Made by a program: the position numbers and the translations under genes | Source of the DNA: Pseudomonas sp. SCB32 | GTDB lineage: Bacteria; Pseudomonadota; Gammaproteobacteria; Pseudomonadales; Pseudomonadaceae | Assembly (NCBI RefSeq): GCF_009189165.1 | Contig: NZ_CP045118.1 | Coordinates: forward strand, 3,038,001 to 3,102,000 | Reading direction: 5' to 3' | Length of the DNA: 64,000 bases | The notes under the pieces: model-generated | Told to the model about the DNA's origin: nothing | Databases searched by the model: none | The model's input: only the letters and a program-made list of their open reading frames with translations | Shown here: one piece after another, positions 35,300 through 54,656 of the stretch | Layout: each line of letters starts with the position of its first letter | Numbering within the stretch: the first letter of the stretch is position 1

Positions 35300-35890
35300 A
35301 TGCATCTCCTCAAATCTCTGCCGATGATCGGCGCCCTGGCCCTGGCGATCGCCGCTCCGGTGATGGCCGCCGATATTCCGCTGGGCGTGACCGTCGAGTC
35401 CGACGAGATCGTGACCAAGGTCATTTCCGTCGATGCCAAGGATCGTCGCGTCGTCGTCGAGGGCGTAGCGGGCAAGCCCGTTACCGTCCAGGTGACCGAT
35501 GTGGCCCAGGACCTGGGGCATTTGAAGTCGGGTGACCACATCGCAGCGCTGGTCGTGCATTCGGCTGCGTTCGATCTGGATACCCAGGTTCAGACCCAGG
35601 CGCCGGGTGGTTTCACGGAAGAGGGCATTGCCCTGGCCACGCCGAGCAACCCGCATCCGGGCGGCGATGCCTTCCGCATGGCGCGCGTGCAACTGAAGAT
35701 CATCGGCATCAACCTGAAGAAGCACGAGCTCACCTTCGAAGGGCCGAATGGCACCAACAAGGTCATCTCCGTGGAGGATCCGAAGCTGCACAGCAAGATG
35801 GGCGCGCTGAAGGTCGGGCAGACGCTCAACGTGACCTACGAGGACACCCTGCAGATCATCACTGCTCATCCCGCAAAGTCCGTTAATTGA
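35300..35890 (+). CDS. Exported protein of unknown function
   Basis: 196 residues with AAGGAGG before the ATG. Signal peptide MHLLKSLPMIGALALAIAAPVMA. The mature part has two related beta-rich segments (VTKVISVDAKDRRVVVEGVAGKP and LKIIGINLKKHELTFEGPNG, each followed by a KxGD/KVGQ turn), suggesting a tandem OB- or SH3-like fold. No catalytic motif. Probably periplasmic. Confidence 0.8.
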   Translation: MHLLKSLPMIGALALAIAAPVMAADIPLGVTVESDEIVTKVISVDAKDRRVVVEGVAGKPVTVQVTDVAQDLGHLKSGDHIAALVVHSAAFDLDTQVQTQAPGGFTEEGIALATPSNPHPGGDAFRMARVQLKIIGINLKKHELTFEGPNGTNKVISVEDPKLHSKMGALKVGQTLNVTYEDTLQIITAHPAKSVN

Positions 35891-35897
35891 TGTCTGC

Positions 35898-35920
35898 GGA
35901 GTACCTGCCACAGGTACTCC
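35898..35920 (+). terminator. Terminator-like hairpin after 35300-35890 gene
   Basis: Perfect 10-base arms GGAGTACCTG and CAGGTACTCC with loop CCA, eight bases after the stop, followed by ATCTCTTGCT (weak T content). Confidence 0.6.
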
Positions 35921-35988
35921 ATCTCTTGCTGCTCATTGCTGCCCAAACCGCCGCCCATACTCTTGGCAGAATCGACTGAGACGAGCGT

Positions 35989-36004
35989 CCCCCCTCGAGG
36001 GGGG
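35989..36004. repeat. Perfect 16-base palindrome CCCCCCTC/GAGGGGGG
   Basis: CCCCCCTC followed immediately by GAGGGGGG, about 100 bases after the last envelope gene. Too tight to be a normal hairpin loop; more like a dimer-binding site. Confidence 0.5.
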
Positions 36005-36214
36005 TAATGGGAGTACTGAACGATGAACGCATCGCTGGTAAGGGGCATAGGCAATCGTCGCAGCAGGGAGATCGGCGGTTGGTGAACTCCTGTATCGAAT
36101 GCAGCCTGTGTACAGCTTCGTAGCGGCAATCTGATTGCCATACTGGTGCTTCCGAGTCGGCACTGGAGCCGATCTCCCAGTTCGAGTCATTTCATCTCTA
36201 ACGGCTAATATTTT

Positions 36215-36229
36215 TGGGAAGTTTCCTAC
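36215..36229 (+). promoter_or_regulatory. BvgA-type heptad operator 1 (TGGGAANTTTCCTAC)
   Basis: TGGGAAGTTTCCTAC. The right half TTTCCTA equals the known BvgA heptad (T/A)TTC(C/T)TA; the left half TGGGAAG is a near match to its inverse TAGGAAA. A TATAAA box begins 20 bases downstream. It lies upstream of the first RocA/BvgA-like response regulator, suggesting autoregulation. Confidence 0.6.
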
Positions 36230-36653
36230 AAGAAATTGGGCGGTGACCTATAAATCACTATGGCGCCATTTCTCGAAAATGCGGCGTTTTCTTACATCAC
36301 CGCATTCGTGTAGGCATCCGATTGCTAGGACACCGTCTATTGACCTCTGGTTTGACCTTGGATCAGGTCAGCCGCCTGCTCTGGAGGAGTATCTGGGGAT
36401 GTTGGGCTACAAACCCACTGCTAGTAGCGATGCCTGATCCAGAATCAGCACGCGAATCGGCATAGCTGCTCGCCCATAGACTGGACCCACGTCTGAGCAC
36501 TGGCTGGTTAGTAACATTTTTTGCATGGATACGTTTGTAAGTAAGACGCCTAGTGATTTGGCGTTTCGGATTTGGTTACGCTCGGTCCATCGCGTCGATT
36601 CTATTGACGGGGCGATGTACTGATGCCGATGTCTGCATACGGAGCAGTAGTAA

Positions 36654-37280
36654 ATGCCGAGAGTTCTGATCGTGGATGACCACCCCTTCGTTCGGGCTGG
36701 AGTAAAGCTGGTTCTGAGCCAAGAAGGCTTCGAGGTAGCAGGCGAGGCAGATAATGGTATTGATGCAGTGCAGATGGCCCGTGACTGCTCGCCAGATCTT
36801 ATAGTTCTGGACATCTCCATCCCACGTCTAGACGGTCTGGAGGTAATTGGTCGGCTTAATGGCGCTGCATCCGGTATCAAGGTTCTGGTGTTGACCTCCC
36901 AGTCGGCTGAATGCTTTTCCCCGCGCTGCTTGAAGGCCGGTGCATCGGGCTTCGTCTCTAAGTCCGGCGATTTAAGTGAATTGGTTCGAGCAGCCAAAGC
37001 TGTTATGGACGGCTATACCTATTTTCCAGCAATCGCCGTCAACTCGGTACGCCGGACCGACATAGATGCCACCGAGGCTGATCGTATCGCCTTGCTTTCT
37101 GATCGAGAGCTGATGATTCTTCAGCATTTGGCGCGAGGGCTTTCTAATAAGGAAATTGGCGATGCCATTTTGCTGAGCAATAAGACAGTTAGCACATATA
37201 AGGCGCGAGTAATAGAGAAACTCAATGTCAGGACGCTTGTGGATCTTGCTGACTTGGCACGGCGCAATAATCTGATCTGA
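36654..37280 (+). CDS. rocA: RocA/BvgA-like response regulator (NarL family), copy 1
   Basis: 208 residues. Receiver domain 1-120 with acidic pair VDDHP (Asp 8-9), phospho-acceptor Asp 53 in LIVLDISIP, and Lys in GFVSKSG; then a LuxR-type HTH (LSDRELMILQHLARGLSNKE, NKTVSTYKARVIEKLNV). Size and sequence style match BvgA, EvgA and RocA1. The sensor gene starts 8 bases after its stop, so the two are coupled. A second regulator of the same type lies at 41377. Predicted to bind the TTTCCTA elements of this locus. Confidence 0.92.
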   Translation: MPRVLIVDDHPFVRAGVKLVLSQEGFEVAGEADNGIDAVQMARDCSPDLIVLDISIPRLDGLEVIGRLNGAASGIKVLVLTSQSAECFSPRCLKAGASGFVSKSGDLSELVRAAKAVMDGYTYFPAIAVNSVRRTDIDATEADRIALLSDRELMILQHLARGLSNKEIGDAILLSNKTVSTYKARVIEKLNVRTLVDLADLARRNNLI

Positions 37281-37288
37281 ACATAGAC

Positions 37289-40200
37289 GTGAGGTTGTCC
37301 CCTGTGCTCTCGTTTCCTCAGCGCCTCTGCAGCCTACTTTGGATTGGCTGTATTTGGGTTCTCACAATTGCCTGCGCACATAGTGAGGAACTGCGCTTAT
37401 TCGGTCGATCCACAGTGGACGGTTACCGAGCCGAACTCAGTAACGAAGACTGGAGTTGGTTGCGTGAGCGTCGAGTATTGCGCCTTGGCATTACGACTCC
37501 GGACTACCCTCCTTTGGACGTGATTAACAATCAATCCGACTACGAAGGTATAAGCGCCGACTATGCTTCGCTGATCGGTGAATTACTAAATGTACGCATA
37601 GAATTGAGAGTTTTTGGGGGGCGCAAGGAAGCTGTTCAAGCCTTAAAGGAAGGCAGTATAGATATCTTATCCACTGCCAATGAATATGACACCACAGAAG
37701 GGGTGGCGCTTTCGTTGCCTTATGCTACCGATCAACCGGTATTAGCTGCACGCGTAGGGAGCGAGGCTGCCGAGAGTCCAGAGTTAAGCGGAATGCGCTT
37801 AGCAATGGCCTATCACTATCTTTCCGAAGCATCAGTAAAGGCTCATTACCCTAACGCTCGACTGCAACTATACCCGTCAACGCTCGCGGCGATGGGGGCG
37901 GTCGCCTTCGGTCAAGCGGATGTCTACTTGGGAGATGCCATTGCTACTGATTACCTAATCAATCGAAGCTACTTAAATAATATTCGCTTGATGAATTTTG
38001 CAAACATCAATTCTGGGTCGTTTGCATTTGCACTGAACAAGGATAATTCTCAGTTGTTGCGGGTGCTCAACAGGGCCTTGGAAGCTATTCCTGAGCGTGA
38101 GCGGATGGTTATCCTCCGACGTTGGGATGCCGATCGCCCCAGTATGCCTGGTAGCCGGATACAATTGACTCGTGCTGAGCAGCAGTGGGTTGCCGAGCAT
38201 CCAGTAGTGAAGATGGCAATCAGCGAAACTGCTTTGCCTTTCACATTCTTTGACGATGATAAAAAATTTCGCGGAATTAGCGCGGATGTGTTGGAGCGGA
38301 TTAGTCAGCGCACAGGACTTCACTTTGAGGTTAATTATACTGGAAAATTGCGAGAAATAGTCTCCAGCGTAGTTAGTGGTGAGTCGGATATGCTGCCTGC
38401 CTTCACTTCAATTATACAAAGTGACGGGAAACTAAGCCTTACTCGCCCGTACTTTACCTCCGCATTCGTGCTGGTCTGTCGCGCATCGTGTGGTGATGTA
38501 ACCCTTAACGATCTGAGCGGGAAAACCATCGCGCTGGTTCGTGGGATTTATCTGCAGGAGTACTTGCGCCAACATTTTCCCAACATCAAGCTTGTAGAGG
38601 TTGATGATGCTGCTGAGGCTATGGAGATGGTTGCTAATGGCAGTGCCGATGCAACGATTAATTCATTGATTGGTGCGCGCTATCTAATCTCCCAGCGCTA
38701 TCCAGGAAGACTGCGCATTACCTCAACTATTGGGACTGCTCCCGGCCAGGCCGCATTTGCGACTGCACGTAGCTCATTAGAGCTGATTTCAATTCTAAAC
38801 AAAGCTCTATTGAGTATTTCTCCTTCAGAAATGGCTGATCTGACTCGGCGCTGGAGTGGTGAGGTCGTAGTTTCAGAGAGCTATTGGTCGCGCTATGGAG
38901 GACTTATTGTCAAAGGGGGAGTTGCCGGTAGTCTAGCTTTGGGAATGGTACTGTTTTGGGTGTATTGGTTGCGTCGGCAAATTCGCAGTCGTATACAGGC
39001 CGAACAAGCTTTGAGTGATCAAATGGAGTTCATGCATGTATTAGTGGACGGCACTCCGCATCCCATTTATGTGCGCGACAGTCAGGGCCGGTTAATATCC
39101 TGCAATGCCAGTTACCTAAGGCGATTGAATGTACGGCGAGAGGATGTGATAGGTCGGAAAGTTTGCGATGGTGCTTTGGCGTCTCCAGAGGAGGCGAGAG
39201 ATTACGAATCCATCTATCAACGAGTGATGGCCAGTGGCGAGCCGGATGTAGGGGATCGTAAATTAACGCTGTCCAATGGCGAGATTCTGACCATTTACCA
39301 GTGGGTATTGCCTTACCGTAATTCCGACGGTGCGGTAGATGGCATCATTTGCGGATGGATCGATATCAGTGAGCGCAAAACTCTGCTCGATGCAGAGCAG
39401 GAGGCACGCGACGCGGCAGAAAGCGCTAATCGCGCCAAGACAACCTTCCTTGCAACGATGAGCCACGAAATCCGCACGCCGATGAACGCTATCCTAGGCA
39501 TGCTTGAACTGGCACAGAAGAAGTCAGAACAGGGCATCATCGACCGAAAAGCTCTAGAGGTGGCGTCTAACTCAGCGCACGGCTTGCTCGGCCTCATTGG
39601 TGACATTCTTGATATTGCTCGTATCGAGTCAGGCAAGCTGAGCCTCAATCCCGAACGCGCAAACCTACGCACACTCACCGAGTCGACCATATGGGTATTC
39701 GAGGGACTGGCCCGACAGAAGCGCCTTGGTTTGCACTTCGATTGCACTGGCGAGACCGTCGCAGACGTCCTAGTCGATCCATTGCGCTACCGGCAAGTGT
39801 TGTCAAACCTGATTGGCAACGCCATCAAGTTTACCGACCAAGGCGAAGTGCGGGTGACTTATCGGGCTAAGGCAGATGGCGATGAGTTGGCAGTTTGCGT
39901 GGAGGTTACCGATAGCGGTCAGGGTATTTCTGCTGAAGACCTGCAGCGCTTGTTCGCACCGTTCTCACAGGTCGGTAGCAGTCAGATGTCTCCGCGCAGC
40001 GGCACCGGCCTCGGGTTGGCCATTAGTCGTACTCTGTGCGAAATGATGGGGGGAAGTTTGGAGTTGTTCAGCGAGTTGGGCCGCGGTACACGCGTGGTGA
40101 TCCAATTGAGCATGCCAATACTGGGTAGTTCCGAACCTACTGCTCCATTGGTGCTCGATAGTACAACCGAAGAAGATCCGTCACTCAGCGTCTTGGTGGT

Positions 40201-40909
40201 AGACGACTATCCCGCCAATCGCCTGCTGCTGGCTCAGCAGCTGGGCTATCTCGGACATCAAGTGCAGGATGCCGAGGATGGTGCCCAAGGCCTACAGGCT
40301 TGGCGTCACGGTCAGTTCGATATAGTGATCACAGACTGCAATATGCCAGTTCTCAACGGCTACGACCTGGCTCGGGAAATTCGAAAGCGAGAGCAGTTGG
40401 ACGGTCTATCTCCCTGCGTGATTTTTGGCTTTACTGCCAACGCATTGCCAGAAGAGCGCCAACGTTGTCTTGATTCTGGAATGGATGATTGCCTATTTAA
40501 GCCCATCACTCTTGAGGATGTGCGCAGCTATCTCGCCGGCATAACCCCACGCACAAAGAGCAAGAGCGGACCCTCAACGTTTGACTTGGCCTATCTGCAG
40601 AAGCTTACGCTGAATAATGCAGAAGCTCTTTATGGCCTGCTGAACGACTTGCTGCGCTCCGTCCGGGAGGACCGGAAGCGGCTTGCCGATTACTCTCCCG
40701 AAACAAACAACCACCAACTTGCTGACCTTGCGCACCGTATCAAGGGGGGCGCGCGACTAGCCAGGGCGGGGTTGCTCTTGGAAGCATGCGAGCATCTGGA
40801 GAGTATGTGCCGGATAGACATTGATCACGATCAGAGGCAATCAGCCGTCGCTCGTGTCTGTCGGTCGTTGGATGACTTGGCCCAGGAGTTAGAAACGCAG
40901 TTGGTCTGA
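37289..40909 (+). CDS. rocS: BvgS/RocS-like hybrid sensor histidine kinase
   Basis: Up to 1,206 residues (GTG 37289; GTG 37304 is an alternative start). Order: signal peptide ending ACAHSEE; two periplasmic solute-binding (SBP_bac_3, Venus-flytrap) domains, about 45-275 and 300-535; membrane helix about 542-562; PAS about 580-700; HisKA with phospho-accepting His 726 in LATMSHEIRTPMNAILG; HATPase with NLIGNAIKF and GTGLGLAIS; receiver with Asp 1016 in ITDCNMP; Hpt with His 1149 in LAHRIKGG. This is the unorthodox phosphorelay of BvgS, EvgS and RocS1. It would phosphorylate the two neighbouring regulators and possibly the EAL protein. Confidence 0.95.
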   Translation: MRLSPVLSFPQRLCSLLWIGCIWVLTIACAHSEELRLFGRSTVDGYRAELSNEDWSWLRERRVLRLGITTPDYPPLDVINNQSDYEGISADYASLIGELLNVRIELRVFGGRKEAVQALKEGSIDILSTANEYDTTEGVALSLPYATDQPVLAARVGSEAAESPELSGMRLAMAYHYLSEASVKAHYPNARLQLYPSTLAAMGAVAFGQADVYLGDAIATDYLINRSYLNNIRLMNFANINSGSFAFALNKDNSQLLRVLNRALEAIPERERMVILRRWDADRPSMPGSRIQLTRAEQQWVAEHPVVKMAISETALPFTFFDDDKKFRGISADVLERISQRTGLHFEVNYTGKLREIVSSVVSGESDMLPAFTSIIQSDGKLSLTRPYFTSAFVLVCRASCGDVTLNDLSGKTIALVRGIYLQEYLRQHFPNIKLVEVDDAAEAMEMVANGSADATINSLIGARYLISQRYPGRLRITSTIGTAPGQAAFATARSSLELISILNKALLSISPSEMADLTRRWSGEVVVSESYWSRYGGLIVKGGVAGSLALGMVLFWVYWLRRQIRSRIQAEQALSDQMEFMHVLVDGTPHPIYVRDSQGRLISCNASYLRRLNVRREDVIGRKVCDGALASPEEARDYESIYQRVMASGEPDVGDRKLTLSNGEILTIYQWVLPYRNSDGAVDGIICGWIDISERKTLLDAEQEARDAAESANRAKTTFLATMSHEIRTPMNAILGMLELAQKKSEQGIIDRKALEVASNSAHGLLGLIGDILDIARIESGKLSLNPERANLRTLTESTIWVFEGLARQKRLGLHFDCTGETVADVLVDPLRYRQVLSNLIGNAIKFTDQGEVRVTYRAKADGDELAVCVEVTDSGQGISAEDLQRLFAPFSQVGSSQMSPRSGTGLGLAISRTLCEMMGGSLELFSELGRGTRVVIQLSMPILGSSEPTAPLVLDSTTEEDPSLSVLVVDDYPANRLLLAQQLGYLGHQVQDAEDGAQGLQAWRHGQFDIVITDCNMPVLNGYDLAREIRKREQLDGLSPCVIFGFTANALPEERQRCLDSGMDDCLFKPITLEDVRSYLAGITPRTKSKSGPSTFDLAYLQKLTLNNAEALYGLLNDLLRSVREDRKRLADYSPETNNHQLADLAHRIKGGARLARAGLLLEACEHLESMCRIDIDHDQRQSAVARVCRSLDDLAQELETQLV

Positions 40910-41376
40910 CTCGCGGGCATAGACCTCGGCTGCAACTACATCTTCGTGGGTGGTTCCTGGTTCGAGTTGATGAGTCTCGACAGCGCCGATGTGGCCGTGT
41001 CAGAGGACCGGCCTCATAAACTATTTCCCAATCATCTCCGCTTCGCGGCCTGCTTGCTCAGTCAGCGATAGCCTCTTTGTGCTCATGCCTGCCCCAATAT
41101 CGACACTCTCAGCACCTGGGAGCGAGTCGTTGTGCTGTTGACCCAGTTCGCATTTGGCGGGATTGAGGAATAGGCCTACAGCCCCAAGAGAAGTCGCCTC
41201 CTGACTTTTCGATTTGAAGTTCGCACAATCCAGAAGTCTGGTAAGCCGCCCGTGAGCAGGTCGTTTTTTGTAGCAGGGTAGGCGCTCGAAGGCTTGACCG
41301 CCGAGTGGGTCCCTCCAGGCAATCTGCTTATAGGCAGCGTTCAGCGACTAACGCTGTGGATGGAACGGAGGTAAAT
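40910..41376. other. Intergenic region between sensor kinase and second response regulator
   Basis: About 470 bases without a credible gene. Only the GGAGG site directly before ATG 41377 is clear. I see no TTTCCTAC element here. Confidence 0.4.
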
Positions 41377-42003
41377 ATGTCTAGAGTTCTGGTCGTGGAT
41401 GACCACCCCTTCATGCGGGCTGGCGTTAGGTTGATACTGAGTCAGGAAGGCTTTGAAATTGTAGGGGAGGCTGAAAGTGGTTTGGCCGCGGTTGAGATGG
41501 CTCATGAGTTGCTGCCCGACTTAATTGTATTGGATCTCTTTATCCCCAATCTAGACGGCTTGGGAGTGCTTGAGCAATTGAACGCACCTGTCTCTGGCTT
41601 CAAGGTGCTAGTGCTGACCGAGCAGTCGGCCGATCATTTTTCCAGTCGCTGCATGAAAGCTGGTGCTTTGGGCTTCGTTTCTAAGAGCAGTGATCTTAAT
41701 GAATTAGCTAGTGCAGCTTTGGCTGTGATGAATGGGTATACCTATTTTCCACAAAACACCTTTAGTTCTGTCCCTTGTGCCGTCATGGAGGTCAGCGAGG
41801 CCCGACGCATTGCGTCGCTCTCTGAGCGAGAGCGGATGGTGTTGGATCAATTGCTACAAGGCCTTTCTAATAAAGAAATCAGCAAAGATACGCAGCTGAG
41901 TAGCAAGACTATCGGCACCTATAAATCACGTGTGTTTGCAAAACTGAAAGTCAGGTCATTAGTGGGGCTATCACAGATGGCACGTCGAAATGGATTGCTC
42001 TGA
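41377..42003 (+). CDS. rocA: RocA/BvgA-like response regulator (NarL family), copy 2
   Basis: 208 residues from ATG 41377 (GGAGG five bases upstream). Same length and layout as the regulator at 36654: VDDHP, Asp 53 in LIVLDLFIP, GFVSKSSD, then HTH LSERERMVLDQLLQGLSNKE and SKTIGTYKSRVFAKLKV. The two are clearly paralogous (most of the receiver is shared) but the linker and recognition helix differ, so they may share the kinase and diverge in DNA targets. Confidence 0.92.
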   Translation: MSRVLVVDDHPFMRAGVRLILSQEGFEIVGEAESGLAAVEMAHELLPDLIVLDLFIPNLDGLGVLEQLNAPVSGFKVLVLTEQSADHFSSRCMKAGALGFVSKSSDLNELASAALAVMNGYTYFPQNTFSSVPCAVMEVSEARRIASLSERERMVLDQLLQGLSNKEISKDTQLSSKTIGTYKSRVFAKLKVRSLVGLSQMARRNGLL

Positions 42004-42028
42004 CCTGAACTTCAGGTCATCCATTTTT
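42001..42028 (+). terminator. Intrinsic terminator after second response regulator
   Basis: TGACCTGAA (starting at the TGA stop) and TTCAGGTCA are perfect complements; TCCATTTTTCG follows. Confidence 0.6.
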
Positions 42029-42702
42029 CGAAAGCTGTTTCAGGCTTATGGTGCCATGGCCCAGCAAGGAGGGTGTACTGATGGTCGCCAATAAGCTATG
42101 GGAGCCGATGTGGTCGCTTGAGCGGTTTTCGGCCTGCCTGTATCTTTAGTTTTGCTACAGATATAAGTCTGCTTGCTCTGGCACGGCAAGTAGGCTATTT
42201 CTGGATACTTTGGCCGGTTTGCAGATGCAGATCCAGCAACGTGGCATGCGCGCCTCAGATCTGCTATCCGCTCCGTATAGGCGATGCGCCTAGCGGTGCA
42301 CTATACGTGCCGAGATTGTTGAGCGATATATTTCTTATATTTCGATAATCATCAAGAGCTATACAGTTCACCAAATTCGACCGTCACCTTCAAGGATGAG
42401 GAATTGCCCACATTATTTCTATTTGCACGAAAAAAATTTGAGGCTCTATCCCTCGATGCTTCCGCTGCACTCGTCTTTCGGCCAGGAGCCTTAATCTCCT
42501 GTGTCAGCGCTTGGATGGCCCCAGCAACTTCCCGGCAAAGTACCCATCACGGCGCTGGCCAGAAAGGGGAGGAGGCTGTTACGACACAAAACCTTTTGGC
42601 TGATTGCCAAGAGGCGTTACCCCTGGCTCAAAGGGCATCGGGCTTAAAATTAGTCGAGCAGAGCCCCTCGCAGGGTATGGGGTATTTCGCGGAGGTTGGC
42701 TC
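42029..42702. other. Non-coding stretch before small unknown gene
   Basis: About 670 bases with no supported gene. A heptad-like TTTCTTA within an AT-rich patch (42326-42347) is the only candidate regulatory feature. Confidence 0.4.
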
Positions 42703-43017
42703 ATGCCCGACTCTCTGACAGCCGCGCAATTGGCTCAGTTGATTCCACGTGAATGCCTAGTTACCTACCGCCTGGATGGTCAATATGTGCTCTATGACCG
42801 CGAGGGCGCCATGCGCTATCGGATTCGCCAAGCGCGCATGCTTGATTGTTGTGATCGCCAAGGCGGTGAGTTGTTTCTGGGAATGGTAATTCGCCGTCGA
42901 GCGGCATGCTTCGCAGTTATGGCGGGAGCGCAGCCGCTTGGAGTGATCGAAGGGCAGTGGTTTATTGATGTGCAAGGCGAGCGCTTTCGCTTGGTTGATG
43001 CGCCGATGCTGGATTGA
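42703..43017 (+). CDS. Uncharacterised small protein of the adhesion locus
   Basis: 104 residues; ATG 42703 has GGAGG seven bases upstream. No signal peptide or membrane helix. Features: an N-terminal helix (SLTAAQLAQLIPRECL), then alternating beta-like strands with Cys-Cys (MLDCCDRQGGELFLGMVIRR) and a C-terminal FIDVQGERFRLVDAP. I do not recognise the family. Its place between the second regulator and the RocR-like gene suggests a signalling accessory. Confidence 0.65.
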   Translation: MPDSLTAAQLAQLIPRECLVTYRLDGQYVLYDREGAMRYRIRQARMLDCCDRQGGELFLGMVIRRRAACFAVMAGAQPLGVIEGQWFIDVQGERFRLVDAPMLD

Positions 43018-43236
43018 AACGAGCGCATTGAGCCGACTTACGCCTCGCCTGGTGCCCCACCGGATCACCAACTGTCGGTGAAAGGTTGAGTGACATCAGA
43101 GGGTGCATCTGCCCCATCTCGAAGTCCGCACGGACAGGAGTGGCCTTTTCCGCTTGTGTGCGGTAGAGACTTCTCACTGATGGTTTGAGCGCATTTCTTC
43201 GTCCCTCTTTCGCATTGATTGATGGCTTCTCAATTC

Positions 43237-43263
43237 AATTCCCAGGCCATGCGCCTGGGAATT
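43237..43263 (+). terminator. Hairpin overlapping the operator upstream of the RocR-like gene
   Basis: Perfect 11-base arms AATTCCCAGGC and GCCTGGGAATT with loop CATGC, running into TTTTCC. It could terminate the gene before it, and its right arm forms the left half of the TTTCCTAC operator at 43256. The remainder of the 43018-43352 gap shows nothing else. Confidence 0.55.
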
Positions 43264-43270
43264 TTCCTAC
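43256..43270 (+). promoter_or_regulatory. BvgA-type heptad operator 2 (TGGGAANTTTCCTAC)
   Basis: TGGGAATTTTCCTAC, identical to operator 1 except at the central variable base, 82 bases before the RocR-like start codon. Confidence 0.6.
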
Positions 43271-43352
43271 GCAATGCCAGGAGCGTGCCTCGCAACATCT
43301 TCCATACGGTCGGGGAGAATTCTTCCTTCCCCATCGTGTCCAGGAACTGACT

Positions 43353-44558
43353 ATGCGCCCGTCATCAGCGTTGATTCTGCAAGATCCCGCCTCTCAGCGA
43401 TCTGGTATGTCGGCCCTGCTGCATCGGCTCGGCTATGGTCACGTCCTAGAAGCGACAAGCGCCGCTCGGGCACTCGAGACTTTGCGTAAGTGTGGTGGTG
43501 TTCAGCTACTGCTTTGGGATTTGCGGACTTGTCCGACGGTTTGTCTGGACTTCCTTCTAGTTGCAGCAAGAGAACATCTCACTCATGCCCTAGTCCTTAT
43601 CGGAGAGCCCGCACAGGGAACCTGGCCTGCGCTGAATAGACTGCTGCGCCTGCACGGACTCCAGGTATTGCGCCTTGAGGGGGAGGGTGTAGTCCCCGAA
43701 GGTCTGTCAGCACTGCTGCAGACCTTGGAGCTGAGCGATCCAAATACACTGGAGCTTCCAATTCTTCGGGAAATTCCAGCAGATGCAGATGTGGTAACGG
43801 CGTTGTGGCGGGGAGAAATTCTTCCCGCATTTCAGCCGAAGGTCTCGGTGAGCACTGGGCAAATTTGCGGATTTGAAGTGTTGGCGCGCTGGCAGCGGCC
43901 GGACGGCGATCTTCTAGCCCCTGATCAATTTCTGCCGGCCCTGCGTGATGCCGAACTACTTGATGCACTACTTTTCACACTGATGAGCCAGGCATTCAGC
44001 AAGCTGTCCACTCTCGGTCGTACGGACATCAAGCTAGCGTTCAATCTTGAGCCTTCACAGATTGCCCTGCCCGGATTGGCCTCTAGGGTTGAACAAAGGA
44101 TGCGGCGCCAGGGAATTGATCCTCGTCGCGTCACTTTCGAGCTGACAGAAGTAGGTCTCTTGGAAGCGCCGATAGTCAGCTTGGACAATCTGCTGCGGCT
44201 TCGCATGCTCGGTTGCGGCTTGGCCATCGATGACTTCGGTAGAGGCCAGTCCACGCTGCAGCGCTTGATAGAGCTGCCCTTTACCGAATTGAAGTTGGAT
44301 GCCTGCTTTGTTCAGGGGCTGGATTGCGACTCTCGTCGAGGCGCGATACTCAGCAGTGCTGTAGCGCTAGGACGAGCCTTAGAGCTGCCTGTGGTAGCTG
44401 AAGGAGTTGAAACGGAAAGGCAACTTCATCACCTGCAAGATCTTGGTTGTGAATATGCGCAAGGGTATTACTTCAGTAAGCCGGTAATGGGCGAGGCGCT
44501 GAATCGCCTGCTGCACACCAAGGCGGCTGGTAATGTGGTTAGTAGACGTTTCCGCTAG
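43353..44558 (+). CDS. rocR: RocR-like receiver-EAL cyclic-di-GMP phosphodiesterase
   Basis: 401 residues from ATG 43353 (AGGA eight bases upstream; the longer frame to 43185 is unsupported). The N-terminal receiver (1-125) keeps the phospho-acceptor-like Asp in LLLWDLRT but has QDP in place of the acidic pair and no Lys in LRLEGEG. The EAL domain (about 150-390) has the full catalytic set: GFEVLARW (EVL, as in RocR), NLEPSQ, ELTEVG, IDDFGRGQ, KLDACFV, AEGVET and QGYYFSKP. It should hydrolyse c-di-GMP; the receiver may be phosphorylation-independent. In P. aeruginosa RocR works against RocA1 downstream of RocS1. Confidence 0.92.
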   Translation: MRPSSALILQDPASQRSGMSALLHRLGYGHVLEATSAARALETLRKCGGVQLLLWDLRTCPTVCLDFLLVAAREHLTHALVLIGEPAQGTWPALNRLLRLHGLQVLRLEGEGVVPEGLSALLQTLELSDPNTLELPILREIPADADVVTALWRGEILPAFQPKVSVSTGQICGFEVLARWQRPDGDLLAPDQFLPALRDAELLDALLFTLMSQAFSKLSTLGRTDIKLAFNLEPSQIALPGLASRVEQRMRRQGIDPRRVTFELTEVGLLEAPIVSLDNLLRLRMLGCGLAIDDFGRGQSTLQRLIELPFTELKLDACFVQGLDCDSRRGAILSSAVALGRALELPVVAEGVETERQLHHLQDLGCEYAQGYYFSKPVMGEALNRLLHTKAAGNVVSRRFR

Positions 44559-44612
44559 GAGTCGGCGCGAAGCAAGCATTGTTGGCAGCTCATGCCGTCA
44601 CGACCACTTTTT

Positions 44613-44631
44613 AGCCGTCTGGGCGGCTTTT
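44613..44631 (+). terminator. Intrinsic terminator after RocR-like gene
   Basis: AGCCG and CGGCT with a 6-base loop TCTGGG, followed by TTT. Short stem but well placed, 55 bases after the stop. Confidence 0.5.
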
Positions 44632-44809
44632 GCCCTACCGCTCTAGCCTAGTCGTCTTTTCGCTCGCCCTTCTTCTCATTTTGCTCCCGGCCGACATTTC
44701 TAGCATGGCGGTCGGGACCAATACGGCTAGGTGACGGCTCTATATATCCTCCCCTGATCCGCGCTTGATTGCGCCGCACCGAGAGATGTTTTCCCATGTG
44801 ATCACTTCG

Positions 44810-44824
44810 TCAGACATTTCCTAC
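44810..44824 (+). promoter_or_regulatory. BvgA-type heptad operator 3 (TCAGACATTTCCTAC)
   Basis: TCAGACATTTCCTAC, 146 bases before the lipoprotein gene at 44971. The same 15 bases occur at 47219. Only the right half matches the BvgA heptad. A second heptad-like TTTCTTA lies at 44874-44880. The rest of the 44559-44970 gap holds the terminator and no gene. Confidence 0.55.
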
Positions 44825-44970
44825 GAAATGGCGAGACCGATCCTGCTCCGATCTTGGCTTGTACTCAATAGTCTTTCTTACCAATCGATCTGCGGTGAAC
44901 GCACTGCCGGATTCTGCAGTTCGGTGTAAGGAGCCAACCCATCTCACAAGCTCTCGGAGGCCTGACTTTA

Positions 44971-45834
44971 ATGAAATACAAAACTATTATCGGCATCGCG
45001 CTTATTGGCGGTGTCAGCACTCTCTACGGATGCCTACCTCAGAAAGCGGCTCCAAGCCGGAACTTGGTGGACATGCCCATTTTGCCGATTATCCAAGAAT
45101 CGATTTCCGGCCTGCGCCCCCAGTTTGATGGTCCGAATGCAAAGCAAATGGTCGGATATATCTGTGCACTGGCGCGTGGTGAGGCAACACTGGAGCAGGT
45201 GAGCGGAAGCTTGCTCAGCACTGGGATTGATCCGTCAAAACTGCCTGCCAATAGCTCTACCTCGCTTCTGCTCACTGGAGACCGTGCCGGGCAGGCCGCA
45301 GCCTGTGCGGCATACATTGCCTTCGATGCGCAGTCACCAGTCGACTTGAGCGACGTCACGGCTATCGCTCCTGCGTCTGCGAACGACGGTAAAGTGCCCG
45401 CACCTCAAATCGACAACGCTCGTTTGGCCCAAACTCTGCGAGTCAAGTTAGCATCGGCTCACGCCACTGCGGATATTTTCGCGCTGATTGGTGCGGAGTT
45501 ACGGCGTAACCCTGGTAAAAGCACTGCGCAGTATCGCGAGCAGGCCAACCAGTTGTTTGTTCGCTTGGCTCCTGTTTTCCTTGAGCGAGTCAAGCAGCAA
45601 TTGCCTCCGCCGAATGTTACCTACAGTGTGGACCGCCTTGAGCCTACCGCACTGGCTTTCAGTGCCTCCAATGGAGTTCAGCTCAACGTATCTCCGGGCG
45701 TGGGTCTGACTATGCGGCAAAACGGCGTTCTCTGGTATGGAGAGGGCAAGTTGCTCGGCCGTGAGTACAACGTACCGGTGGCTTACTTCCCGCTTTCGGT
45801 GAACGCGCTGTTGACCTCTCCGGAAAAAACTTGA
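44971..45834 (+). CDS. Lipoprotein of the adhesion locus, paralogue 1
   Basis: 287 residues. Signal MKYKTIIGIALIGGVSTLYGC gives a lipobox at Cys 21. It shares an architecture with the lipoprotein at 54856: LPIIQ near the N-terminus, a Cys-containing YICALA/ICGLA segment, ACAAYIA, KLASAHATADIFALIGAELR and the C-terminal VLWYGEGKLLG...VAYF. No known family recognised. Two such proteins bracketing the adhesin suggest envelope components serving it. Confidence 0.85.
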   Translation: MKYKTIIGIALIGGVSTLYGCLPQKAAPSRNLVDMPILPIIQESISGLRPQFDGPNAKQMVGYICALARGEATLEQVSGSLLSTGIDPSKLPANSSTSLLLTGDRAGQAAACAAYIAFDAQSPVDLSDVTAIAPASANDGKVPAPQIDNARLAQTLRVKLASAHATADIFALIGAELRRNPGKSTAQYREQANQLFVRLAPVFLERVKQQLPPPNVTYSVDRLEPTALAFSASNGVQLNVSPGVGLTMRQNGVLWYGEGKLLGREYNVPVAYFPLSVNALLTSPEKT

Positions 45835-45998
45835 GTTGCTGCTGCCCCTGGATGCGGGTTTGGCTCGTAATTTCGAGTTTGAGTCGAACCGACGACAAGG
45901 GCGACACGCATCAGCGGTAGCCACTTCAGGCGCCAATTGATTCTTCGCTAGTAGCCTACCGCTATAACGGGCTCCCCACCCATCAAACAAGCGAATCG

Positions 45999-46952
45999 AT
46001 GAATATGAAAAGCTCCCTTGCCATGCCAAGCAATCTAAAACCGTTGTCGCAAGATATTAAAGTTCCCATGCTCAATCTCAGGATGGATCAGCTATCGCAA
46101 AGCTACTTTGGTCAACTGCCAGAGATGGCGCGAGCCGGGCAGGGGAGGTTCACCACTCAGCAAACTCCTGGCTCTTCAGCGGACGTCAGTAGTGGTGGGG
46201 CGAACTTGGAGCTCGACGACGCCTCCGAATTCAGCGAATTGACTGCTATCCAGGAGTTTCTGTCCATGCCACTTCAGGCGACTGCAGAGACCGAGCCGAA
46301 GCTTATGCGGGGCCAGCCTGAATTAGCAGCGGCCATTTCACAACCAGAGTCCGCAACTCCTCCTGAAGTTAGTGAGACCGACAGGGTGCTGCAAGGTGTC
46401 CAGTCCACGCTCGACTCTCTGGCAGGCATGGCCCATGAGCTGTCGCAGCAAAAGCTCAATGCACAGAAAGCACAGGAAGCATTAGATCATCGTTGCCGGC
46501 AAGCTCAGGAAGATGAGCTGAGACTTACTGAGCAGGCCGAGCGCTTGCAGCAGTTGGAGCAGAGCTTGCTGATTGGCAGGCAATCTCTTGAGCGAGACGC
46601 CCAGGAACAGGCTGTGAGCCTCTTCGAGCGCCGCCAGGCTCTCCAGGTTCTGGAGGAAGCGGTCGACAGGCGCGAGCGTGCCCTTGCTAATCGAGTCGAA
46701 CTGCTCACCAAGGAAGAGCAACGGATGGAGCAGCAGCAGGCGCATCTTCTTTTGCGTGCTGCCGAATTGGATGAACGTGAAATTGCCCTGCAACGCCTTA
46801 GCGACGACCTTGCTGCAAAATACTCTCGCCTCGTTGATGCCAAGAATCGCTTAGAAATTATTGTTAAGAGTTACAGCGAGAAAAATCTACGGCTGGTTCG
46901 TGGCGCCTTGAGTGCTATCGACAAGACCATTCCTACAGATCTTGATGAATGA
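45999..46952 (+). CDS. Coiled-coil protein of the adhesion locus
   Basis: 317 residues from ATG 45999 (MNMKSS; an ATG six bases on is also possible). No signal peptide. Residues 1-125 are low-complexity and Ser/Pro/Glu-rich; residues about 130-300 are a continuous heptad-like coiled coil (QAERLQQLEQSLLIGRQ, VLEEAVDRRERALANRVELL, LDEREIALQRLSDDLAAKYS). No family recognised. A cytoplasmic coiled-coil inside a run of exported proteins is odd; a scaffold or polar-localisation factor is possible but unproven. Confidence 0.8.
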   Translation: MNMKSSLAMPSNLKPLSQDIKVPMLNLRMDQLSQSYFGQLPEMARAGQGRFTTQQTPGSSADVSSGGANLELDDASEFSELTAIQEFLSMPLQATAETEPKLMRGQPELAAAISQPESATPPEVSETDRVLQGVQSTLDSLAGMAHELSQQKLNAQKAQEALDHRCRQAQEDELRLTEQAERLQQLEQSLLIGRQSLERDAQEQAVSLFERRQALQVLEEAVDRRERALANRVELLTKEEQRMEQQQAHLLLRAAELDEREIALQRLSDDLAAKYSRLVDAKNRLEIIVKSYSEKNLRLVRGALSAIDKTIPTDLDE

Positions 46953-46959
46953 CGCCTAC

Positions 46960-46989
46960 AGGCCTCCTGTCTTCATGGAGGCCTTTTTT
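46960..46989 (+). terminator. Intrinsic terminator after coiled-coil gene
   Basis: AGGCCTCC and GGAGGCCT with a 9-base loop, followed by a run of six T. The clearest terminator of the locus. Confidence 0.88.
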
Positions 46990-47218
46990 GACTGCGACAT
47001 CCTCTTTTACCTCAAAGATACACTCATAGCGCTCAGTGTTAAGCGCTAGTCTTCATTCCTCTGCTTCAATTCAAGCCCCTTTCACGCCACTGCTTAAAGA
47101 CGTAAGCGTTCCAAGCCATTGCACTCTTTAGCTAGGAACAGCTGCTTGATGTGGTTGCGTCGTGCATGGACGGAGAGGGGCAGCTAGGAGCTTCGTTGGG
47201 TGCCACGCCTCCTTCGCT

Positions 47219-47233
47219 TCAGACATTTCCTAC
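47219..47233 (+). promoter_or_regulatory. BvgA-type heptad operator 4 (TCAGACATTTCCTAC)
   Basis: Same 15 bases as operator 3, 80 bases before the periplasmic repeat-protein gene at 47314. The rest of the 46953-47313 gap holds the terminator and no gene. Confidence 0.55.
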
Positions 47234-47313
47234 ATTTCGGTCGGAACCTGCTTCGGTTCATTCAGATGACGCCTCCCTAACATGGCTGCAGTCCCAATCA
47301 AATAGCTGTGACC

Positions 47314-48054
47314 ATGAAAAACACTCTCAAATCCCGTATCAAGCAAGCTGCTCAAGCCTCCAGTGTTGGGCATATGCGTTCCCGTCTATTTCTTTCGCTT
47401 ATGCTGATCGGCCCGATGGGCATTGGCGCTACTAATGCATTCAGCCAAACGCACTCTTCGGTTCAGGTCGCCCCGCAAGTTTCTTACACCCAGGCCCTCG
47501 CTGACGACACCAGTGGCCGCCATGAGCAGGCACGGCAACTGTTCGATGCGCTCTCCAGCACCGAGTTGAAGACTGTCAGCGCAGTGCCATCGGCAGTGAA
47601 CCTGGTCCTGTTGGAGCGTTATGCAGACGCTCGCAAGGCCTTCGGCGTGATTGCTAGCAGCGCTATTCCCCGTGATGCTGCTTACGCCCAAGTTTGGCAG
47701 CTGTGGCTAACGGCGCGTACTTGGCAGGGCGAGCCAGAGGAGCTGCGTAAGCAACTTAAAGTCCAGACCCGCAGCCTGAAAGGCAAAGATCCAGTGCACC
47801 AGGCGCTGATTGATCTGTACGCAGGTCAGGGCCGTGCCGAGGCGGTATTCACTGCCATCAACGCCATGTCTATCGCCGATGCCGATCGTCGCGATTTGCG
47901 CGCTGAGTCGGCCTTCTTCGCTGGCGGATTTGCCCAGTACGTCGTTAATGATCAAGCCGCGGCCTTGCGGTTGTATCAGCGTGAATATGCCAATGCCAAT
48001 GAGTCTCTTGAGCGCCCGTTGCTTGAGCGCGCTATTGCCGAGCTCTCCCGCTGA
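47314..48054 (+). CDS. Exported TPR-like helical-repeat protein
   Basis: 246 residues from ATG 47314 (GTG 47308 also in frame; no strong ribosome site). A long basic N-region then a hydrophobic stretch (RLFLSLMLIGPMGIGATNAFSQ) indicates export; this extended signal resembles that of the adhesin. The mature part is a TPR-like solenoid: GRHEQARQLFDAL, RYADARKAFGVIA, YAQVWQLWLTARTWQGEPEE, GQGRAEAVFTAI. Likely a periplasmic helper for adhesin assembly, inferred from position and a shared operator type. Confidence 0.8.
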   Translation: MKNTLKSRIKQAAQASSVGHMRSRLFLSLMLIGPMGIGATNAFSQTHSSVQVAPQVSYTQALADDTSGRHEQARQLFDALSSTELKTVSAVPSAVNLVLLERYADARKAFGVIASSAIPRDAAYAQVWQLWLTARTWQGEPEELRKQLKVQTRSLKGKDPVHQALIDLYAGQGRAEAVFTAINAMSIADADRRDLRAESAFFAGGFAQYVVNDQAAALRLYQREYANANESLERPLLERAIAELSR

Positions 48055-48112
48055 TTGCTAGTGAATCGGCCATGGTATCTCGTTTCGTTGCTCCAGGCGT
48101 TTCTGTGCAAAT

Positions 48113-48127
48113 TGGGAAATTTCCTAC
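48113..48127 (+). promoter_or_regulatory. BvgA-type heptad operator 5 (TGGGAANTTTCCTAC)
   Basis: TGGGAAATTTCCTAC, the best symmetric version (left half TGGGAAA against ideal TAGGAAA), with a further CAGGAAA half-site at 48135-48141 and a TATAAA at 48155-48160. It lies 249 bases before the adhesin start. The rest of the 48055-48376 gap would be leader. Confidence 0.65.
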
Positions 48128-48376
48128 ATCTCATCAGGAAAGGGCTGGCAGGCTTATAAAGAGCTTTTCGCAATCATATATCTATCGGGCTTGAGAAATA
48201 TTGACTCTCACTTAGTCCTGAAACTAATTCGCTCCATTGGGTGCTCCAGTAACTCTTGCGCTTAAGAGAGCTCAAGGCTGCGCTATCAGTGCTCTAAGGC
48301 TGCCCTTATCCCTTCGCTCAAAAATAACTTTGGGCAAACAAATATGCCGATCGATTGGAGAGGCAAGGATATATTT

Positions 48377-51300
48377 ATGAACAAAGTTTACCGTCTCGTT
48401 TGGAACGCTACTCTTCAAGCTTGGGTGGCTGTGAGTGAATTTGCCAAGACTAATGGCAAGAGTGGCAAGTCGCGTATCGTGAGTGGCGGAGTTGGAGTGC
48501 TGCTGGTTGCTGCAGTCGTGGGTCCTGCTCAAGCTTACAAGGCCGGTACTGGCGCAGATGATGCAGGTGTCACCACTAACGTTGCAGTAGGTGATAATGC
48601 AAAGACCGTCGTAGGAACTATCGCACAGACACCCGTGTATGCAACAGCTGTTGGCGCAGGCGCTATCGCTGTAAAGGGGGGGACTGCACTAGGCGCCGCT
48701 GCACAGGCCAATGGTCAGAACTCTACGAGTATCGGAAACGGCTCTACAGCTGGCATGACCTATGATGTGGCTCTTGGATATCTCGCCAGTACGACATCGA
48801 GTGGGGCAGGTGGATCTTCACTTGCCATCGGTCATGCTGCAACAACTCTTGCAGATGGCGTTACCGCCATTGGTGACGGAGCAGTAGGTAGTGGCCGCCT
48901 ATCTACAGCAATTGGGGTCGCAGCTGGGACTGGTGGGGTTAACTCTGTTGCCGTTGGTGGTTATGCAAGAACCTCTGACAAAGAGGCCATTGCAATCGGC
49001 TATCAATCTGGCTCGGGTGTGGCTACCACCAACGGCTCGGGCATTGCTATCGGTGCGCGTTCTGGCCAGAACGTTTCCGGCGTGGGCGATAACATTGCCA
49101 TTGGTCGTGATGCTGGTAAGAACGTCAGCGTGGGCGGGTCGAACGTCGCTATCGGTACAAACGCAGGCACGGGTGCAGTTCAGGCTGACGCAACCACTGC
49201 CATTGGTAAAAACTCCCTGGCTACTAAAGACAATGCCTTGGCCATGGGTGCCGGTGCCACAGCCAATGGTACCGATGCGGTGGCTGTAGGTACCTCGACG
49301 CAGGCTTCGGTCAATAGTATTGCTATGGGTAAGGGTGCCAAGGCAACTGGTTCTCAGTCGATTAGCATCGGTACCGGCAACGTCGTTTCGGGCAATAACT
49401 CCGGCGCCATCGGTGACCCGAGTACTATCACTGGCAATGGCAGCTATGCGCTGGGCAATAACAATACCATCGCTTCTGACAACGCCTTCGTGATCGGTAA
49501 CAACGTCAATCTGGCTGTCGGCACCAATGGTGCCATCGCACTGGGTAATCAATCGCGCGTTAGTACTGCAGGAGGCGTTGCGCTGGGCGAAGGCTCCAAT
49601 GCCTCTCGTGCCTCTGGTGTTGCGGGTTATGCACCGACTAAGGCGCTTCCGGCCGATAAGGCCGCCATTAGTGCAACCACCGCAACTCGTGCTGCAGTCG
49701 ACGTAGGCAGCCGTCAGATCACCAGTGTGGGGGCAGGTTCGGCGGATTCCGATGCGGTAAACGTAGCCCAGTTGAAGTCTGTTGAGAACCTCGCCAGCGC
49801 AGGCTGGAACGTAGCCGATAGCTCCGGCACGAAGGCCAATATTGGCCCAGCTGGCAAGGTCACCTTTGGTGGTGACAGCAACGTCAGTGTGACGGCAGGT
49901 GGCGCCCAAGATGCGGGCACTGTGAGCGTTGCGCTGAACAAAGATTTGAACTTGTCTTCCGCCGGTAGCCTGACCATCGGTAATAGCCTGCTGAATGACA
50001 ACGGCCTGACTATCACTGGTGGTCCGAGCATCACCGGGACCGGTATCGATGCGGGCAGCAAGCAGATCACCAACGTGACTGCCGGCAGCGCCGACACCGA
50101 TGCGGTAAACGTGAAGCAACTGAAAGACAGCACCTACGAGGGTTGGAGCGTCCAGGCCAATGGTGGCGCCGGCGACAAGATCGGCACCGGTGAGTCGGTG
50201 AACTTTGCTGATGGCAGCAATACTTCGGTTGCCTACGACGCGGCCAGCAACAAGCTGCAGGTGAACCTCAACAACGACCTGAACCTAGGTGCAGCGGGTA
50301 GCCTGACCATCGGCAATAGCCTGCTGAATGACAACGGCCTGACTATCACTGGTGGTCCGAGCATCACCGGGACCGGTATCGATGCGGGCAGCAAGCAGAT
50401 CACCAACGTGACTGCCGGCAGCGCCGACACCGATGCGGTAAACGTGAAGCAACTGAAAGACAGCACCTACGAGGGTTGGAGCGTCCAGGCCAATGGTGGC
50501 GCCGGCGACAAGATCGGCACCGGTGAGTCGGTGAACTTTGCTGATGGCAGCAACACCTCGGTTGCCTATGACGCGGCCAGCAACAAGCTGCAGGTGAACC
50601 TCAATAACGACCTGAACCTGGGTGCAGCGGGCAGCCTGACCATCGGCAATAGCCTGCTGAATGACAACGGTCTGTCTATCGCTGGTGGTCCGAGCATCAC
50701 CGGGGCCGGTATCGATGCAGGCAGCAAGCAGATCACCAACGTGGCTGCCGGCACCGCCGACTCCGACGCAGTGAACTACGGCCAGTTGAAGGCCAGCACC
50801 TACGAGGGTTGGAGCGTCCAGGCCAATGGTGGCGCTGGCGACAAGATCGGCACCGGTGAGTCGGTGAACTTTGCCGATGGCAGCAACACTTCTGTTGCCT
50901 ATGACGCCGCCAGCAACAAGCTGCAGGTGAACCTCAATAACGATCTGAACCTGGGGGCAGCGGGCAGCCTGATCATCGGCAATAGCCTGCTGAACGACAA
51001 CGGCCTGACCATCGCTGGCGGTCCGAGCATCACCGGGTCCGGTATCAATGCGGGCAGCAAACAGATCACCAACGTGGCTGCCGGCAGCGCCGACACCGAT
51101 GCGGTGAACGTCAGCCAGTTGCAGGAGCTGGCCGATATCTCGGTGAAGTACGACCTCAACCAGGATGGCACTGTTAACTACAACAACATCACTCTGGGTG
51201 GCGACACTTACAACAGCGTGACCCAGACCGGCGGTACCAAGATCACCAACGTTGCTCGCGGTGTGGCTGACAGCGATGCGGTGAACATGTCGCAGCTCAA

Positions 51301-53855: not shown

Positions 53856-54656
53856 ATGTTCAAGCAATTTTCTCTGAGTGGCCTGCGTGTGGCTGTAGCT
53901 GTAACTGCGCTGGCGGTGTTGACGGCCTGCGGTACTGTGAGCAAGGTCGATGACGCTGGCAAGACCGCACAGCCGATCTTCCCGGCAATGAAGGATGCTT
54001 CCATGCTGGAAGGCTACTACGTCAATCTGGAGAACCTGGGCAAGATGCGTCCTGGTATGAGCAAGAAGCAGGTGATGGAGTTGGTCGGCCACCCCCAGTT
54101 CAGCGAGGGCATGATCGGCGTTCGTGAGTGGGACTACATCTTCAAGTTCCGCCAGCCTGCTGGCCAGCCGGACAAGGTCTGCCAGTACAAGGTACTCTTC
54201 GATAAAAACATGGTTGCACAGTCATTCTTCTACCTGCCGGCCAATTGCATGGAGCCGGTAGCTCCGGTGCAAGAGATGGCCGCAACTAGCGTCAAGAAGA
54301 TCAACCTGGCCGCCGACGCCACCTTTGGTTTCGATAGTGCGCAACTGCGCCCGGAAGGCCGCGCCAAGTTGGATCAACTGATCGGCGAGCTGAATGAAGT
54401 GAAGCTGATCAGCATCAGCATTGTCGGCTACACCGACCGCTTCGGTAGTCCAGCCCACAACAACAGCCTGTCGCTGCAGCGCGCCAATGCTGTGCGCACC
54501 TATCTGGTTGACCGTGGAGTGAAGGGCTCACAGATCGAGGTGGATGGCCGTGGGTCCGCTGAGCCTCTGGTGGTTTGCCCAGGAGCAAAATCGCCGCAGG
54601 TGATCGAGTGCCTGGCGCCTAATCGTCGCACTCAAATTACCATTCAATCCGAGTAA
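53856..54656 (+). CDS. tpgA: TpgA-like lipoprotein (BamE/SmpA domain plus OmpA-like domain)
   Basis: 266 residues. Lipoprotein signal with LTAC (Cys 25). Residues about 45-130 form a BamE/SmpA-OmlA domain (NLGKMRPGMSKKQVMELVGH...REWDYIFKF); residues about 150-266 form an OmpA-like peptidoglycan-binding domain (FGFDSAQLRPEGRAKLDQL, GYTDRFGS, RANAVRTYL, GRGSAEPL). This domain pair directly behind a trimeric autotransporter gene is the arrangement of Acinetobacter TpgA, which is needed for surface display of AtaA. Co-transcription with the adhesin is likely. Confidence 0.93.
   Translation: MFKQFSLSGLRVAVAVTALAVLTACGTVSKVDDAGKTAQPIFPAMKDASMLEGYYVNLENLGKMRPGMSKKQVMELVGHPQFSEGMIGVREWDYIFKFRQPAGQPDKVCQYKVLFDKNMVAQSFFYLPANCMEPVAPVQEMAATSVKKINLAADATFGFDSAQLRPEGRAKLDQLIGELNEVKLISISIVGYTDRFGSPAHNNSLSLQRANAVRTYLVDRGVKGSQIEVDGRGSAEPLVVCPGAKSPQVIECLAPNRRTQITIQSE

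Follow-up and report, generated by a model that had tools for sequence, protein, structure and literature searches.

Inverted heptads of the BvgA type as probable operators of a Roc-like locus with a trimeric autotransporter adhesin in Pseudomonas

Five copies of a short element lie upstream of genes of a single adhesin locus in the 64-kb window, i.e., the whole stretch of 64,000 nucleotides of Pseudomonas sp. SCB32 DNA that was analysed; judged from sequence comparison, these elements, probably together with a sixth at 41164, are likely operators of the RocA/BvgA family that would drive a Roc-type adhesin locus within a dispersed regulon. The locus is best read as a Roc locus in which a trimeric autotransporter serves as the adhesin, and the assignment of the elements to BvgA in an earlier, sequence-only reading was right in kind. 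The positions of the sites are collected in Table 1; similar sites are conserved in promoters of related loci of other Pseudomonas, and the window sites are, on average, phased with weaker partners at 22 bp.

Table 1. Putative Roc boxes and genes of the adhesin locus (positions in the window)
Feature	Position	Strand	Remarks
Roc box 1, TGGGAAGTTTCCTAC	36215..36229	+	before first response regulator; matrix rank 1 in the window
Roc box, TGGGAATTTTCCTAC	43256..43270	+	before EAL gene; matrix rank 6
Roc box, TCAGACATTTCCTAC	44810..44824	+	before lipoprotein; matrix rank 3
Roc box, TCAGACATTTCCTAC	47219..47233	+	before periplasmic protein; matrix rank 2
Roc box, TGGGAAATTTCCTAC	48113..48127	+	before trimeric adhesin; matrix rank 4; TATAAA at 48156
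Likely sixth Roc box, CTGTAGGCCTATTCCTCA	41164..41181	-	196-213 bp before ATG of second response regulator
RocA_a, response regulator (receiver + LuxR-type HTH)	36654..37280	+	recognition helix LSNKTVSTYK
RocS, unorthodox BvgS-type kinase	37289..40909	+	two SBP_bac_3, PAS, HisKA, HATPase_c, receiver, Hpt
RocA_b, second response regulator (receiver + LuxR-type HTH)	41377..42003	+	changed helix LSSKTIGTYK
RocR/PvrR-like EAL-domain protein	43353..44558	+	EAL by Pfam; PvrR model below cut-off
Lipoprotein, no family	44971..45834	+	named from N-terminus; 40.8% paralog beside the genome's second trimeric adhesin
Coiled-coil protein, weak SMC match only	45999..46952	+	extra matrix match 46921-46938 at 3' end
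Putative periplasmic protein, no family	47308..48054	+	relatives adjoin RocA/RocS-like sequence in other genus genomes
Trimeric autotransporter adhesin	48377..53785	+	ESPR, YadA head, stalk and anchor all found
OmpA-type lipoprotein	53856..54656	+	best named match TpgA, 142.6 vs cut-off 350

The octamer TTTCCTAC occurs on the + strand at 36222, 43263, 44817, 47226 and 48120, and it is embedded in two frames, namely TGGGAANTTTCCTAC, exact at 36215, 43256 and 48113, and TCAGACATTTCCTAC, exact at 44810 and 47219. The five copies and the two identical frames are indeed situated where the sequence-only reading had placed them, and they exceed chance in the window, where 0.51 copies of the octamer are expected and 100 shuffles reached a maximum of three, none of them containing five. 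In a genome-wide scan, which had been proposed as a check, the octamer on its own is only mildly enriched in the 6,311,241 bases of the genome, and since its 81 copies compare with 64 for the same pattern read backwards, it is not special genome-wide. The fuller joint pattern TNRGAMNTTTCCTAC, which was derived from the five window sites themselves, is rare and clustered here, with eight exact matches in the 6.31-Mb genome, five of them at the window locus, and none for the reversed control; when up to two mismatches were allowed, it fell to the background level (188 matches in the genome vs 171 in the control). The gap from box to gene is about 425 bp for the first regulator (box 36215), 83 bp for the ATG of the EAL gene at 43353 (box 43256), 147 bp for the lipoprotein (box 44810), 75 bp for the periplasmic protein (box 47219) and 217-250 bp for the trimeric adhesin (box 48113). 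Mechanical reading frames run over three of the sites (36135-36437, 47151-47435 and a longer version of the EAL gene that begins with TTG at 43185), and these were judged not to be real genes. The earlier list of five sites thus stands, and what it overlooked is the 22-bp phasing and the likely sixth site at 41164-41181, which is second best in the window by the site-1 part of the matrix described below and rank 7 by the joint matrix.

Structurally, each site, whether TGGGAANTTTCCTA or TCAGACATTTCCTA, is a complete 14-bp inverted heptad with dyad symmetry and shares its register with the published BvgA site TAAGAAATTTCCTA. According to PMC7250471, the latter serves BvgA as the primary site in Pfha, where a dimer binds the inverted heptad head to head; further BvgA dimers follow at 22-bp intervals, the nearest one abutting the -35 region. 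The site at 48113, TGGGAAATTTCCTA, differs from the Pfha sequence at 2 of 14 bases. The two abutting heptads are present at the window sites, the left half being degenerate in the TCAGACA class. It is to be noted that the sequence-only reading had seen the right half as the element and had taken the left half for a frame; its identification of a BvgA-type heptad is supported by the full inverted heptads, by the closeness of the 48113 site to Pfha, and by the occurrence of the box before rocA in many Pseudomonas. An origin of the boxes by repeat duplication was also considered and rejected, since the flanks of the six sites are unlike each other by eye.

Domain searches confirmed that the locus encodes two BvgA-like regulators and a BvgS-like kinase, as had been read from the sequence. 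RocA_a scored below the curated NCBIfam cut-offs of FimZ (162.3 vs 271) and EvgA (157.1 vs 251), and RocA_b below that of RcsB (44.8 vs 235). In the RocR/PvrR-like protein, Pfam reported EAL and no receiver, while the PvrR model spans 1-391 with 208.7 bits against a cut-off of 580. A first scan of the genome contigs with the lipoprotein 44971..45834 returned no relative. Cup fimbriae are not part of every Roc locus; here, no chaperone or usher was found among the 10 proteins scanned at 35300-53785, and a trimeric adhesin is present instead.

To bring in promoters of other species, the second regulator was aligned with its relatives and named Pseudomonas genomes were scanned, the best 80 of 579 relatives being kept as loci. 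By a strict pattern, two boxes exactly 22 bp apart stand before rocA in 64 of these 80 named loci (best 80 of 579 relatives). In the typical rocA promoter, some 129-137 bp upstream of the matched start, TTTTGTAGGA-N5-TC is followed at a distance of 22 bp by GTAGG-N5-TCT. A matrix was made from the 58 + 43 unique sites of the 64 promoters, with the window sequence excluded; the 16 loci that lack the strict double box gave it no sites, and four of them (L074, L083, L085 and L141) carry one or both boxes in variant form. This matrix ranked the five window sites 1, 2, 3, 4 and 6, identical to the ranks in its first version, and it replaced a matrix made from the sites of the window and of a second roc locus of the genome (L001), which was set aside as circular. 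At scores of at least 15, the first version found six matches in the window, compared with eight in 1,600,745 bases of reversed sequence from the 80 loci, or 0.32 per 64 kb. The remaining place among the top six, rank 5, is held by 46921-46938, a match within the coiled-coil gene at its 3' end and 370 bp upstream of the gene for the periplasmic protein. The strict double-box pattern itself was too weak for use as a search tool, because in 25 genus genomes it gave three matches in three genomes (two before rocA-like genes, one doubtful) and three in the control.

When the mean partner score over the five or six window sites was calculated, +22 bp downstream was the best of 218 offsets. The single partners at +22 in the window are weak (-14.7 to 0.9); the spacing expected of adjacent dimers is clear in the 64 of 80 rocA promoters, whereas in the window only the average peaks at +22. 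The same offset was also the top one at 14 sites of other genomes that were hand-picked and lie outside the matrix; two of these have partners that are themselves listed as matches, which raises the mean, and the set leaves out, e.g., the L114 pair, L026 11664 and two late L070 matches. At seven background TTTCCTAC sites, +22 ranked 75th. In the own genome, a +22 partner is present at the fimbrial site of the roc1 locus, and a good one is absent at three sites, namely those before the lipoprotein of the second trimeric adhesin, the L146 pilin and the roc1 rocR. At 36215, TATAAA falls within the presumed second box.

The earlier description of the locus as a self-contained regulon is not supported, since the box also precedes genes at three unlinked places of the same genome. 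These are L001 (roc genes together with fimbrial genes), L145 (a lipoprotein and the second trimeric adhesin) and L146 (an operon for a pilin). L001, at 3.91 Mb, has rocS-rocR-rocA beside genes for a fimbrial subunit, an usher and a PapD-type chaperone; the interval that separates rocA from the first of the fimbrial genes contains TAGGAAATTTCCTA, and TGGGAAATTTCCTA is found some 85 bp upstream of the probable start of rocR. L145, at 3.83 Mb, encodes a full trimeric adhesin according to Pfam, and no YadA-anchor protein besides this one and the window adhesin was found in the genome; the L145 box stands 113 bp before the lipoprotein paralog (40.8%), and matches of 15.6 and 14.9 lie 140-180 bp before the adhesin. 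At L146 (2.22 Mb), the box is 115 bp before a FimA-type pilin gene, which is followed by a PapD chaperone and an usher. Altogether, 23 genome places outside the locus match TNRGAMNTTTCCTAC with 0 or 1 mismatch, the palindrome being counted once, and all were inspected. Roc or adhesin genes lie downstream at four of the 23 (two in L001, L145, L146), 12 fall within mechanical frames of at least 80 amino acids, the extended rocR frame included, and some others precede norC-like, VipA/TssB and ABC-transporter genes. The notion that every exact site is a target was rejected, as the exact match at 6130605 (L003) and the one-mismatch place at 3673096 (L005) are inside VgrG-like frames by eye. Since the box is common to other Roc loci and to adhesin operons of this genome, the regulon is probably dispersed, with cross-regulation.

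Several further matches and regulators were observed in the course of these scans. A VipA/TssB gene of type VI secretion has a palindromic Roc-like box, TTGTAGGGAATTTCCCAA, some 270 bp upstream (L159 2703; 6120702 in the own genome), and strong box matches were seen just before a cytochrome c gene resembling norC (L160 2858) and, at a distance of about 485 bp, before a gene for an ABC-2 type transporter (L158 2814). An orphan RocA at L059 8590-9216, 60% to RocA_a and with a changed helix like that of RocA_b, has three box-like matches at 8126-8232, about 360-460 bp upstream. A Roc2-like locus of the own genome (L060 12684-12723) carries two GTAGGA boxes 22 bp apart before rocA, which score lower in the matrix. 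Single proteins of about 600-650 amino acids, in which a RocA-like receiver and DNA-binding part is joined to a PAS/histidine kinase part, are encoded at L061 10713-12602 (own genome; composition based on Pfam) and L026 9008-10825; among relatives, one such fusion sits in an adhesin locus between rocS and the periplasmic gene.

Boxes were also found at loci of other species. In P. fluorescens (L070), they precede genes for a fimbrial subunit, rocR, rocA, a lipoprotein-like gene and a pertactin/AIDA-type autotransporter; in P. yamanorum (L125), rocR, rocA and, at some distance, chaperone-usher genes on the usher side; and in P. vranovensis (L072), a CS1-type major pilin and an unnamed gene of that cluster. 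At L114, a pair of boxes 22 bp apart precedes a gene to which Pfam assigned no family. Relatives of the periplasmic protein occur in 15 of 25 genus genomes, the own included, and 15 of the 18 short loci around such relatives also contain RocA- or RocS-like sequence. Sixteen longer stretches were divided into seven (L025-L031) that are RocA-type or, in the case of L027, have no visible regulator in the stretch, and nine (L032-L040) in which a RocA-like match is directly followed by a kinase-like match, the two being fused in all three that were translated. Boxes scoring at least 12.5 numbered 13 in the former (2, 4, 2, 3, 1, 1 and 0, so that L031 has none although it is one of the seven RocA-type adhesin loci) and 0 in the latter (Fisher p 1.5e-5); with the first matrix, the counts were 14 vs 2. 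By the first matrix, the 22-bp pair stands before rocA in L026, L029 and L030. Boxes precede the periplasmic gene in L026 and L028; of two boxes in L027, one precedes the lipoprotein, and the other lies in the interval from the periplasmic gene to the approximate start of the adhesin. Among the 80 named loci (best 80 of 579), 12 are operon-type, 11 having a RocS-like neighbor and L072 fimbrial genes; no box scoring at least 14 was found at six of the 12 (L063, L064, L077, L088, L122 and L132), and the single matches at L073 (15.1) and L136 (15.0) could be due to chance. At L149 (genome G018), where the RocA is the nearest to RocA_a in the genus outside the own genome (65%), nothing scored above 12.1 despite RocS and a CS1-type usher nearby.

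The identity of the reader of these boxes deserves separate consideration. The own genome carries seven RocA-like matches at E<=1e-40, the window pair counted, and the boxes could be read mainly by another paralog, such as the roc1 RocA at 3.91 Mb or the orphan at 3.70 Mb, with the local regulators being minor. Such an arrangement would agree with the perfect palindrome at the roc1 locus and with the in vitro targets that P. aeruginosa RocA1-3 have in common in the available text of PMC12051241; however, five of the eight exact places of the genome are clustered at the window locus, and the helix of RocA_a is of the standard kind, and we therefore regard this arrangement as unlikely.

Still less probable is the proposal that the two site classes correspond to the two regulators, RocA_a reading TGGGAANTTTCCTAC and RocA_b reading TCAGACATTTCCTAC as private sites. 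It draws on the altered recognition helix of RocA_b (LSSKTIGTYK vs LSNKTVSTYK) and on the uniformity of the classes, all 15 bases being the same in the class II copies and a single one varying among the class I copies. However, both kinds of site are found 22 bp apart within single rocA promoters in 64 of the 80 named loci (best 80 of 579), where site 1 resembles the reverse complement of the TGGGAA class and site 2, which is GTAGGNAATGTCT in many, that of the TCAGACA class; because both classes pair at a fixed distance in one promoter, one class per regulator is disfavored. Both kinds also occur together in L070, as a CAGA-like site at rocA and a TGGGAA-like one at rocR, and tblastn detected a single RocA in the stretch fetched there, although such genomes may hold more RocA genes elsewhere. 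The LSNKTVSTYK helix of RocA_a is also present in 68 of 68 orphan RocA proteins, i.e., relatives without a RocS-like neighbor, and it is changed in RocA_b and in the orphan at 3.70 Mb (LSSNTIGTYK). Since its helix is standard, unlike that of RocA_b, RocA_a appears the likelier of the two to read both site classes. Lastly, it is scarcely credible that the repeats have no operator function and arose by chance, as the genome-wide frequency of the octamer might suggest (81 vs 64), or through the duplication of promoters, given that the flanks of the boxes differ by eye, the matrix of other species recovered the window sites, the average phasing peaks at 22 bp, and the joint pattern had no match in the reversed control.

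Under the favored reading of the boxes as RocA/BvgA-family operators, we infer the following course of phosphotransfer, binding, activation and c-di-GMP control. RocS would sense a periplasmic ligand and pass phosphate along its His-Asp-His relay to RocA_a; a head-to-head dimer of RocA_a~P would bind the 14-bp inverted heptad, and a further dimer would be recruited to the weak site 22 bp nearer the gene. RocA_a~P would thereby activate its own gene and those for the EAL phosphodiesterase, the lipoprotein, the periplasmic protein and the trimeric adhesin, the phosphodiesterase acting as a negative arm via c-di-GMP, and the trimeric adhesin would replace the Cup fimbriae of other Roc loci. In the available text of PMC12051241, the motifs of P. 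aeruginosa RocA1, RocA2 and RocA3 are highly similar and the in vitro targets include the roc1 locus and the cupB and cupC operons; the box may equal this published DAP-seq motif of RocA1-3. A literature text search with short motif strings returned no Roc paper by title among the matches listed, and, in the main text as available, PMC8041468 has no mention of RocA1, and PMC7532196 none of BvgA or EvgA.

A wider generalization is possible, although we would hesitate to favor it: the 22-bp-phased inverted heptad may be one operator code common to BvgA and the RocA family across Pseudomonas, marking a dispersed adhesin regulon with interchangeable cargo (trimeric adhesin-lipoprotein modules, other autotransporters and chaperone-usher fimbriae). 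In this lineage, the duplicated RocA with a changed helix would have diverged into a protein that modulates the first or competes with it. With the box, any Pseudomonas genome can be searched by sequence for members of the Roc network, and targets are predicted that would be missed from gene neighborhood alone, such as the unlinked trimeric adhesin and the pilin operon of the own genome. It would also join Roc and Bvg by operator sequence and spacing, beyond the similarity of their proteins. Moreover, a locus with a normal and a changed helix side by side makes target separation among RocA paralogs testable.

Among known systems, the Roc system of P. aeruginosa (RocS1-RocA1-RocR and its branches) likewise consists of an unorthodox kinase with two SBP_bac_3 domains and PAS, a DNA-binding RocA and the EAL protein RocR, and the roc/fimbria loci of the named relatives L070 and L125 bear the identical box type; the window locus differs in its second, diverged RocA and in having a trimeric autotransporter, a lipoprotein and a periplasmic protein instead of Cup fimbriae. 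In the BvgAS system of Bordetella, the architecture of the BvgS kinase is like that of RocS here, and the targets include adhesins. Common to both is the inverted heptad in the 14-bp register of Pfha; the 22-bp spacing described for BvgA in PMC7250471 recurs in the rocA promoters of other species and, as an average, at the window sites, where the secondary boxes are weak. The genus and the genes are different. EvgAS of E. coli provides the closest regulator with a solved structure (EvgA, 5f64) and the best NCBIfam match of the kinase (EvgS), but the window proteins are below the curated cut-offs of both models, and the targets are other ones. Finally, the Acinetobacter AtaA/TpgA system is a trimeric adhesin with its TpgA partner. 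A trimeric adhesin is here, too, followed by an OmpA-type lipoprotein for which TpgA is the best model; that match is below its cut-off, and the pair in the window differs further in being linked to Roc genes.
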